DNA from: Mesaphorura yosii
Taxonomy: Eukaryota; Arthropoda; Collembola; Poduromorpha; Tullbergiidae
Direction: 5' to 3'
NCBI GenBank assembly: GCA_009869945.1
Contig: WIXG01000233.1
Span: 1-64,000 of the forward strand
DNA length: 64,000 nucleotides
The position numbers were made by a program, and so were the translations under genes. Below, piece by piece: positions 3,416-40,338 of this stretch (position 1 is the stretch's first letter; the number at the start of each line of letters is the position of its first letter). The notes under the pieces were generated by a model. That model ran no database searches. It had not been told where the DNA came from and was given only the letters and a program-made list of their open reading frames with translations.

Positions 3416-5101
3416 TTATATAATGCTTCTATAAGTTTTGTTTTTCCCAAGCATGAGCAATGCCTTCAGTGTATACAGTATCAGGAAGAGGACCATCTTG
3501 TATGTCGTGCTTCTAGCAATGTACAAGAAATTCCCAACCCAGATCTTCAACGGAGCACACGACTTCAACGATGTATGGTACAGCAGTGAACTATGGTTTG
3601 CCTGGCGGAGGTTTATCCGGGGAAAACTTTGATAGCTGCTTACGAATTTCGTAGAGTTTACATTGATTTTGGCCACCATGGGTATTACCGTCAGCAGAAA
3701 TATGACCATCGTTCCGCCAATGGATGTGGTCGTGACTAAAATGTACCAAGGGAGCTGTCGATGGAAAGTCACGCCAACACAATTTGCGATGATTGCAAGA
3801 AAGTACAGGGCGAATATCAGGCACGGTGCTATGAATGGCCGTGTGATGGAATTTTGTATGCTGACGACGATATGAAGACAGCGGTACACGTGCAATCCGA
3901 CTTTAATGCGCACATGAGTCTGGACAATATTTAGAAGAGTGGACAAAATGGTCGAAGTGTAGCCCATTCCGCCTATTGTGACGATGTACGCGAGCTGCGC
4001 TGCCAAAAGTGTATGGGCGGACACTGCTACGCTGTACAAGACAATGACTATCGCCGAGAGAAGTGTCGAGTGTCTTGTTGCCAGTTTTATAATCAACAAG
4101 ACTGGATATCGCTTGTCCAGAGGATCGCAAAAGTAGAATAGTGCCAAAGAAAGCGGTTGAAACATCACGACGACAATGGAAGAGTTCAAAATTACTTTCC
4201 ATGTTCTTGAACTCTCCTTCGGTGCCATTCTTGGATTGGCAGGATGTCGGTTTATGAACCCTGCAACGCGGATATTTTGGCTTTACTTTCCTCTAGTCTA
4301 GTTTACTTTCCTTCTATTTCTAAATAATGAATGAAATATGAAACGGGGCATTTCAACTTTTTCAGGCAAGATCTATAAAGCACATTTCCTTTTCCTTCAC
4401 TTGTTTCCTTGCACCTTTGCAAGTGTGACACTGGTGGGGTTTGGGTCCTTTTGCTCCGCACCAAGACAGGCTGCCGAACATGGGTCAGGCGCCGCTTGCC
4501 GGCTCCGCCAGTGTCACCCCCACCCTGTATTACCCCATTCGAGCCTGAGAATGTTGCCCAGAGGATCAAGAAAAACCCTCAAATGAGGTAACCCTTCTCC
4601 GTAATACAGAGCCAGCCAACTGGAAGTCCCATCCAAGCAACTATCCCGACTGTGCCTGCTTAACTTAAGTGTTCTGATGGGAACTGGTGTCCTGCACAGC
4701 TAAGGCTAGCTCTACTTCTATTTCTAAATATTAAGCATTGAAACGATCGAGCATTTACCTTCGATGAGACTGAATAAATTCAGAGTAGCATTAATAGCAG
4801 AGCAAATTTCCATCTTGTTCATAGCGAGACTAAAGTGTAAAAGCGCCGCGACGGTAGACGCGCTTACGTATCCAAAGTGTATTTCGATGCTCATCAGACT
4901 GGAACTCCAGGAGCCATTCAAGACTTTAACTAATGCTATCCACGAATACGCGATATACGCCCAGAACAGAATCAGATTGAACAAATAGACACGCAGCGCC
5001 CAACCCGTTGCAACTTCGAATTTGGATGCGGTGAAATTCCATTGGATAGGAAATACTCTCAACTTATTGAGGAAACGAAGATACGAATCGACCAGGCTCA
5101 T
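3416..5101 (-). CDS. 7TM chemoreceptor, gustatory-receptor-like (cluster member 1)
   Basis: Predicted ligand-gated chemoreceptor of the arthropod gustatory receptor superfamily, acting in the sensory-neuron membrane. Two exons: 4759-5101 and 3416-4260, joined at a phase-1 intron (last residue before it Glu, split Gly), giving 395 residues, usual for this family. It shows about seven hydrophobic segments, an early FPIQWNF motif near residue 18, and a C-terminal block LKSCAPLKIWVGNF followed by a last hydrophobic helix with YKMVLFLILYTLKALL. The two neighbours share the same N- and C-terminal motifs and the same intron, so this is a tandem duplicate. The insect-type TY...QF signature in TM7 is absent. 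The intron is unusually long because it contains a SINE. The ligand is unknown. Confidence 0.85.
4311..4326. repeat. target-site duplication, left copy
   Basis: CTTCTATTTCTAAATA, identical to 4715-4730; flanks the SINE. Confidence 0.85.
4327..4714 (-). mobile_element. SINE with 5S rRNA-like head (SINE3-like)
   Basis: A 388 bp insertion in the intron of chemoreceptor 1, bounded by a 16 bp direct repeat at 4311-4326 and 4715-4730 (CTTCTATTTCTAAATA). On the minus strand it starts, four bases inside the duplication, with a 100 nt 5S rRNA-like stretch (4611-4710). This contains a box A-like AAGTTAAGCAGG, GTCGGG, and a box C-like GCTTGGATGGGACTTCC, the internal pol III promoter of 5S genes. About 280 nt of unrelated body follows (GC-rich, rich in GGTGGGG/GTGACACTGG motifs), ending in an AT-rich tail. 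Structure, duplication and promoter together mark a retroposed 5S-derived SINE. The family is not one I can name. Confidence 0.85.
4715..4730. repeat. target-site duplication, right copy
   Basis: CTTCTATTTCTAAATA, identical to 4311-4326; adjoins the 5' (5S-like) end of the SINE. Confidence 0.85.
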
Positions 5102-38748: not shown

Positions 38749-39468
38749 TCATGAGTGTGGTCGTGATCTCAGATCGGTAGAAAACGGCTTACTATCATTA
38801 CTAAAACTAATGGAACTCGACTTTCTTCCTGTGTGCGTCTTACGATGCGATTTCATGTTGCCATTGTCCTTGAATTGCTTGCCGCACAGGTCACATGTGT
38901 ACGGCTTCTCCCCAGTGTGCGTTCTTCGGTGAGATTTCATATTTCCAATATCTTTGAATTGCTTTCCGCAGACGTCGCAGCTGTAGGGCTTCTCTCCAGT
39001 GTGTGTCCTCCGATGTGACTTCATGTTGCCGTTGTCCTTGAAGCGCTTTCCGCAATGGTCGCAGATGTACGGTTTTTCGCCGGTATGTGTTCTGCGATGA
39101 GACTTCATATTGACTTTATCTTTGAAGGACTTTCCACAAATGTCACAAGAGTACGGCTTCTCTCCGGTATGGGTTCTCTTGTGAGATTTCACATTGCCAT
39201 TGTCTTTGAATTGCTTCCCGCAGAGATCGCACGAGTACGGCTTCTCTCCTGTATGCGTTCTTCGATGAGATTTCAAATTACAATTGTCCTTGAACGATTT
39301 GCCACAGATTTCGCAGGCGTAGGGCTTGTCAGTGGTGTCAGATTTTGGAGACAAATTATTCACAAATGGCGGAGGTTTGTCGACAGGGAAGAGGTGGGCG
39401 TTTGTAGTCTTTTTGAGGGGTTTCATGGTGTCATCAGCACTTTTCACTAACCACCACTGCGACAACAT
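38749..39468 (-). CDS. C2H2 zinc-finger protein B, six near-identical fingers
   Basis: An uninterrupted minus-strand frame from the ATG at 39468 to the stop at 38749 gives 239 residues (a later ATG at 39426 is also possible). Six consecutive Kruppel-type fingers joined by the canonical TGEKPY linker, with helices FKDNCNLKSH, FKDNGNVKSH, FKDKVNMKSH, FKDNGNMKSH, FKDIGNMKSH and FKDNGNMKSH. Helix positions -1, 3 and 6 are Asp, Asn and Ser in every finger, so all fingers should read nearly the same triplet. It lies only 59 bp downstream of zinc-finger ORF A on the same strand. A CAG acceptor-like site at 39457-39459 could make this the last exon of gene A. A nuclear DNA-binding protein. Confidence 0.8.
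   Translation of the reverse strand: MLSQWWLVKSADDTMKPLKKTTNAHLFPVDKPPPFVNNLSPKSDTTDKPYACEICGKSFKDNCNLKSHRRTHTGEKPYSCDLCGKQFKDNGNVKSHKRTHTGEKPYSCDICGKSFKDKVNMKSHRRTHTGEKPYICDHCGKRFKDNGNMKSHRRTHTGEKPYSCDVCGKQFKDIGNMKSHRRTHTGEKPYTCDLCGKQFKDNGNMKSHRKTHTGRKSSSISFSNDSKPFSTDLRSRPHS
38820..39330 (-). repeat. 84 bp tandem repeat encoding zinc fingers
   Basis: Six successive 84 bp units, each one finger plus linker, highly similar at the DNA level. This indicates recent unit duplication or gene conversion. Confidence 0.8.
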
Positions 39469-39526
39469 GAGTAACAAGTGCACGCTTTTTATGAATTGCA
39501 CGAATAAAAATGCTGCTGTTCCAGCT

Positions 39527-40338
39527 TCAAGACAGGGAGAACTTTTGCTCTTGCAGTTCTGGAACCGACGTATTGTTGTGAGTGTTCTTGTGTGATTTCA
39601 AATTGTTGTACACAGTGAATGCTTTCCCACAAATGTCACACGCATAAGGTTTCTCTCCCTTGTGTGACCGTATATGAATGTTTAGATTGCCATTTGTTGC
39701 AAAACTTTTTTCACAGTAACTGCAGGAGTAGGGCTTCTCGCCGGTATGAACACGCCGGTGCGAAAGCATGTTACCCTTCGTTGTGAAACATTTTCCACAA
39801 GTGTCGCAGTTGAAGGGCTTTTCTCCTTTGTGCGTTCGAAGGTGTATTGCCAAATTGCCGTTGGTTCCAAAACTCTTGCCACAGTAGCTGCAGGAATATG
39901 GCCTTTCTCCGGTGTGCGTCCGCTTATGACATGTCATATTACCTTGAGTGGTAAACTGCTTGCCACATATATCGCATGGGAAACGCTTTTCGCTGCTGTG
40001 AACTCCTGCAGAATCAGAGGGCCAATCTTGAAGTATATTTCCCGTAACAAAAATAATTGCATTCATCCCGCTGCTTACCAGTGTGCTTGCCCAAGTGCTG
40101 CTTCAGTTGTGAATTGTATTGAAAGGTTTTGTCACAGTAATTGCACTTCGTGTTTCGGTCATCTGGCACAGGAGGCGGTGCAGGAGCACTTGGTAGGTGG
40201 ATCTCTGGAGGTTCTGAGCATAGTTTAGGCCAGTCCGGTGACATCTACAACAGTCCGCGCTTAAGAAAATTGCCCTAGAACAGTTTGGAGTTAGCTTACC
40301 AAGTCAAGATGTCTTGGTTCCTCAAGTCCCCGTTTCAT
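39527..40338 (-). CDS. C2H2 zinc-finger protein A, six fingers
   Basis: Exons 40300-40338 (MKRGLEEPRHLDL), 40079-40244 and 39527-40005; phases 0 and 1 agree and give 227 residues. An N-terminal Pro-rich stretch (LPSAPAPPPVP) precedes one divergent finger (CNYCDKTFQYNSQLKQHLGKH), an intron, then five fingers (CDICGKQF, CSYCGKSF, CDTCGKCF, CSYCEKSF, CDICGKAF). These have helices of the type xTxGNL/M and linkers alternating TGE(K/R)PY and KGEKP. Asn at helix position 3 is constant in the five-finger block, as in ORF B, which suggests common ancestry. It is divergent from THOC3. A transcription factor or chromatin protein is inferred; no KRAB, ZAD or BTB domain is seen. Confidence 0.8.

Follow-up and report, generated by a model that had tools for sequence, protein, structure and literature searches.

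SINEs that begin with a sequence derived from 5S rRNA form a minor class. In Lepidoptera they include HaSE3, PxSE4, PxSE5, LaSE2 and CsSE2, and are described as a 5S head with boxes A, IE and C, followed by a body and a 3' tail (PMC3272025, PMC8010984). According to the same descriptions, the four lengths listed lie between 294 and 389 bp, target-site duplications are given for some copies of the HaSE3 type, and HaSE3 and PxSE5 share some 43 bp at the 3' end with a named LINE. PxSE4, LaSE2, CsSE2 and PxSE5 occur in 532 to 4415 copies, HaSE3 is described as rare, and a weak promoter has already been proposed as a reason for the rarity of SINE3 elements (PMC3272025, PMC8010984). AfuSINE3 of Aspergillus fumigatus is described as having a 5S-related head, a length of 259 to 343 bp and five copies (PMC5063351).

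The element considered here very probably belongs to a small and old SINE3-type family with a 5S-derived head, of which about five copies lie dispersed in the genome. This copy lies in contig WIXG01000233.1 of the springtail Mesaphorura yosii, the first 64,000 nucleotides of which were analysed and are called the window. Its parts and those of its host gene are the following.

3416 to 4260, minus strand: downstream coding exon of a chemoreceptor-like gene
4261 to 4758, minus strand: host intron of 498 bp, GT...AG, reading frame open across it
4759 to 5101, minus strand: upstream coding exon, starting at the first ATG of the 395-aa joined frame; more upstream exons are possible
4311 to 4326, no strand: target-site duplication at the 3' end of the element, exact 16-bp repeat
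4715 to 4730, no strand: target-site duplication at the 5' end of the element, exact 16-bp repeat
4327 to 4714, minus strand: whole SINE, 388 bp, bounded by the duplication; five copies at six places in the genome
4607 to 4713, minus strand: head derived from 5S rRNA (RF00001, 34 bits, model positions 1-120)
4657 to 4666, minus strand: box A-like AAGTTAAGCA, by alignment with host 5S
4622 to 4636, minus strand: box C region, 2 bp shorter in the window copy, as aligned to host 5S and the sister copies
4704 to 4713, minus strand: helix I, 5' arm; forms 10 pairs with 4608-4617, including one G-U
4608 to 4617, minus strand: helix I, 3' arm, partner of 4704-4713
4601 to 4607, minus strand: second stem, 5' arm, GTATTAC, pairs with 4527-4533
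4527 to 4533, minus strand: second stem, 3' arm, GTAATAC, pairs with 4601-4607
4571 to 4575, minus strand: T5 run (AAAAA on the plus strand), resembling a Pol III stop, 31 nt past the head
4425 to 4517, minus strand: third module, framed by an inverted repeat of 13 nt (92%; arms 4425-4437 and 4505-4517)
4327 to 4435, minus strand: A+T-rich 3' region with a TTTCAT-type end; its matches are copies of the SINE family only

The boundaries are those of the original prediction: the exact direct repeat CTTCTATTTCTAAATA occurs at 4311-4326 and at 4715-4730, with a spacing of 404, and encloses 388 bp. The 3' end is TTTCAT-like rather than poly(A). Stop-to-stop frames of at least 130 aa do not overlap 4327-4714, as expected of a non-coding element. 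Its body, which the earlier reading had failed to recognise, matched nothing searched outside the family.

The copy count that had been proposed as a check was made in the species' own assembly of 93.0 Mb in 1127 contigs; the copy numbers are lower bounds. Five places were found besides the window, and the same set was returned when a second copy was used as query. Two of these places, on C222 and C317, are terminal in their contigs and overlap exactly over 48 bp, for which reason they are taken as the halves of one copy; the identity of 0.875 between them is an alignment artefact, since the ends agree exactly over those 48 bp, and that row was left out. Five copies are accordingly counted, namely the window copy (C233), C174, C244, C222+C317 and C81. 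Three are complete and uninterrupted, with lengths of 388, 426 and 448 bp. In the alignment, C174 and C244 both carry about 50 bp more, a repeat of part of the body, and a separate extra stretch of 27 bp is seen in the split copy. Exact matching of two patterns to viral contigs gave no matches.

Target-site duplications of 14-16 bp with zero to two mismatches flank four of the five copies (16/16 matching positions in the window, 15/16 in C244, 13/14 in C222+C317 and 12/14 in C174), and all four begin with TA when read along the element. The same number of copies keep the shared body and tail. In C81 the duplication is unconvincing (10/12 at best) and the tail unclear. All five copies start at the 5S head and match positions 1-120 of the 5S model; in the window copy, model position 1 lies one base inside the duplication, which puts the 5S part at the element's 5' boundary on the minus strand, a strand that the original prediction had left unstated. 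Its claim of a SINE with a 5S-derived head is borne out by these copies, and what it had named as evidence to the contrary, a single copy, or copies without duplications and with the 5S part away from the border, is not what the genome contains.

The match of the window head to the Rfam 5S family runs from 4713 to 4607 on the minus strand, covers all 120 model positions and scores 34 bits (E 1.6e-4), which falls below the gathering score of 38; searched as a whole against Rfam, the window gave nothing above gathering. The heads of the sister copies score 42.2, 33.9, 32.5 and 30.6 bits, so that one head in five exceeds the threshold. A 5S search of the species' own genome gave 14 matches: the five SINE heads, seven host 5S genes, two of them complete and five truncated at contig ends, and two degenerate sequences. 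The host genes occur at dispersed places (C491, C494, C281, C103, C278, C697 and C817; L007-L012 and L014), and L009-L012 have a common 3' flank, GTACAAC, ahead of the T run. The degenerate sequences (L020, C606:4559-4674, 30 bits; L015, C51:254408-254530, 38.3 bits), in which the SINE body was not seen, are probably 5S pseudogenes.

Boxes A and C of a predicted Pol III type 1 promoter were placed by alignment with the host 5S genes, the box names being those used in the descriptions in PMC10886601, PMC3272025 and PMC8010984. Host 5S and three of the five copies (window, C174 and C81) have box A, AAGTTAAGCA, unaltered, and C244 and C222 depart from it by one change each. Box C, GATGGGTGAC, is present in host 5S and in two copies, C174 and C244; in the window copy it reads GATGG--GAC, a 2-bp deletion. 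Of the two boxes that the earlier reading called recognisable, box A is so, and box C is damaged in this copy. The IE region is weakly conserved. A block from CACCAGTTC to CACTGAAGTTAAGCA is common to the SINE heads and the host 5S genes, and the host's TTGGATGGGTGAC is exact in C244.

The common 5' end of the copies argues for transcription that would start at the 5S head, presumably by Pol III. Consider now where such a transcript might end. A T5 run occurs 15-34 nt past the head in all five copies that have the 5' half; in four it lies at 140-144 (window 140, C174 143, C244 and C222 both 144), and three have a run at 124-125 (C174, C244 and C81). Six host 5S genes have a readable 3' flank, and their first T run, which begins 5-7 nt past the 3' end motif, is T5 in five and T6 in one. 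The tRNA genes were taken from the 30 best-scoring of 63 tRNA places, where 38 ARAGORN calls less 7 repeats give 31 genes; the first run of at least four T is T5 in 15 of them, T4 in one and longer in 15, and inside the genes T5 occurs in none and T4 in two. In these 31 tRNA genes and six 5S genes, T5 is the host's commonest and nearly its shortest Pol III stop. Because the runs behind the heads have this length, a full-length SINE transcript may be a minority product that possibly requires read-through, and such a requirement could in turn explain the low copy number: stops just past the head would make full-length RNA rare and keep the family small. A literature search on early Pol III stops in SINEs listed no paper.

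The stretch from CACC to box A is the most conserved part between C81 and the rest, C81 differing at 2 of 33 columns (Fisher p 0.009 against the remaining alignment; 2/33 versus 55/261, p 0.037, when the poorly alignable tail is left out), in a region that was picked after the alignment had been viewed. The SINE head retains a 5S-like fold in spite of a rewritten helix I. In C174, the best-kept copy, this helix has nine standard pairs out of nine, compared with eight out of nine in host 5S; relative to the host helix, both bases are altered in five of the pairs and one base in two. A perfect Watson-Crick helix I beyond what shuffling gives (10 bp, reached in 0 of 4000 shuffles) is found in this copy only; in the other four the value is reached by 725 (window), 917 (C81), 2265 (C244) and 3862 (C222) of 4000 shuffles, and in C81 four of the ten pairs are broken. 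For the head together with the second module, RNAalifold predicts 52 pairs. Two-sided alterations affect five of them and occur in the C81 row alone: three in the helix 67-72/94-99 and two in the stem 111-117/187-193. The two altered pairs of the second stem (4601-4607/4527-4533 in the window) are among these five. Of 500 trials with shuffled 3' partners, 6 reached five two-sided pairs and 1 reached the covariation score, and slid versions gave zero to three two-sided pairs; the count of further pair types is ordinary, being equalled by 124 of 500 shuffles. The covariation comes from one divergent copy among five sequences in all, and selection on the RNA structure of the head is suggested by it, not shown.

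Taken further, these observations lead to a speculative and rather unlikely proposal, in which the element would encode an RNA that mimics 5S. Its fold and rewritten helix I would be under selection, Pol III would normally stop at the T5 runs, after about 128-148 nt, the mimic would join 5S-binding proteins or ribosomes and so reach a LINE enzyme, and only the rare read-through RNA that carries the tail would be copied, with a tiny copy number as the result. A literature search combining 5S, SINE and ribosomal protein L5 gave nothing pertinent as judged by title.

Mobilisation by a LINE would proceed by reverse transcription from the 3' tail of the transcript with the machinery of a non-LTR retrotransposon, and insertion would generate the 14-16 bp duplication. 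The LINE partner sharing the tail, for which a search had been recommended, did not appear. Stretches of 109 and 83 bp from the 3' end, searched against the species' own genome, matched only the four tail-keeping copies. A 29-nt tail pattern with up to three mismatches was found in three of these four, the window copy being gapped there, and had zero control matches. The genome has at least 19 places with an RVT_1 domain, 16 of them over the cut-off, and searching at the DNA level with one RT family brought up more fragments; from their motifs we read some of the 19 as LTR-like and some as LINE-like. Sensitive BLAST against these 19 loci, several of which are truncated at contig ends, and against nine places of a repeated RT family, mostly outside the 19, gave nothing significant, and the tail was seen in none of them. 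The best E value against RT loci was 0.076, between 21 bp of C81 and L093; the remainder of the window reached 0.041 at best, and both matches are taken as chance. With some RT loci truncated in this way, the partner may have escaped the search, or it may be extinct. One RT family (L038, L039, L042, L043 and L050) has the motif Y(L/M)DDA(T/S)LG(D/N)T and an open frame of up to 599 aa.

In its multi-transmembrane, chemoreceptor-like host gene the SINE lies in sense orientation, both being on the minus strand. Without the element and one duplication the intron would measure 94 bp, and its removal (GT...AG, 4758-4261) joins two frames into a product of 395 aa from the first ATG. That product has six hydrophobic zones after merging of overlaps, at least one of them long enough for two helices. 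Three frames within the window are paralogous, identities to the first being 31% and 26%. Pfam gave no match to the product at E 0.001, and with the limit relaxed to E 10 the matches were weak and irrelevant; the odorant-receptor family PF02949 gave no match, and the control genomes, being prokaryotic, have little bearing on the taxon. The AlphaFold model is unusable (mean pLDDT 42.9). Of the chemoreceptor intron originally proposed, the intron thus stands; that the gene is a chemoreceptor is plausible but unproven. Elsewhere in the window (38749-40102, minus strand), adjoining frames with tandem C2H2 zinc fingers were noted by eye.

The exact duplication had been read as the mark of a recent insertion from a family that may still be active, and the window copy does have the lowest share of private changes, scored where at least three other copies agree: 12/238, compared with 17/245 in C174, 17/236 in C244, 18/268 in C222+C317 and 72/257 in C81. 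By our own arithmetic, an exact 16-bp duplication is expected with a chance of about 18% even at 10% pair divergence (0.9^16), so that its exactness is weak evidence for youth. The four younger copies have identities of 0.838-0.895, a pairwise difference of 10.5-16%; no pair exceeds the 89.5% between the window copy and its nearest relative, each younger copy carries 5-7% private changes, the window copy still 5%, and its box C is damaged. A very recent insertion from an active family is accordingly improbable, and neither part of that claim is upheld. The four copies look like products of one source, inserted at about the same time and not very recently, and C81 like one older or separate lineage; the family, few, old and decayed, does not look active today.

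Other origins have to be weighed against a SINE of this kind, which itself must accommodate a tail-sharing LINE that was not found, C81 without a convincing duplication or clear tail, T5 runs at odds with simple full-length Pol III transcription, four heads of five under the Rfam gathering score and a copy number very low for a SINE. The 5S-like fold and the five pairs altered on both sides between C81 and the rest would also suit 5S-related genes for structured non-coding RNA that form a family by ordinary duplication rather than mobility; four of the five copies, however, sit between direct repeats of their target, the window copy lies inside an intron and every copy has changed, which makes such a family very improbable. 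TRIM retrotransposons of the Cassandra and Ajax kind have 5S promoters too, with lengths given as 421-434 bp for Ajax and 565-860 bp for Cassandra (PMC10886601). Here the two LTRs are absent from the window copy, whose only direct repeat is the duplication with its neighbours, and the duplications of 14-16 bp compare with 4-5 bp described for the related Helenus (PMC10886601), so that a TRIM is less credible still. The internal inverted repeat at 4425-4437 and 4505-4517 might recall a DNA transposon or MITE with a captured 5S gene, a reading left with hardly any probability by the lack of terminal inverted repeats in the window copy, by duplications that vary between 14 and 16 bp and by the low-complexity 3' end.

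A literature search on SINE3 or 5S and springtails gave no title recognised as this family, and absence from print is not claimed. As a 5S-headed SINE, then, the springtail family adds a very small member of the class in a compact genome with its at least 19 RVT_1 places. A 5S fold retained in spite of a rewritten helix I, together with stops like those of the host's own Pol III genes, would offer a simple and testable reason for SINE rarity, beside the weak-promoter idea. Likened by their descriptions, the lepidopteran SINE3 families agree with it in 5S head, body and tail, in target-site duplications (given for some HaSE3-type copies) and in similar length; they differ in that four of them have 532 to 4415 copies and two have a named LINE, against five copies and no LINE found here (PMC3272025, PMC8010984). 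SINE3-1_TC of the flour beetle and SINE3 of zebrafish belong to the same 5S-headed class, by their mention in PMC3272025 and from general knowledge. AfuSINE3, as described, is alike in its 5S-related head and its five copies; its boxes A, IE and C are given as poorly conserved, whereas here box A is exact in three of five copies and GATGGGTGAC is kept in two (PMC5063351).
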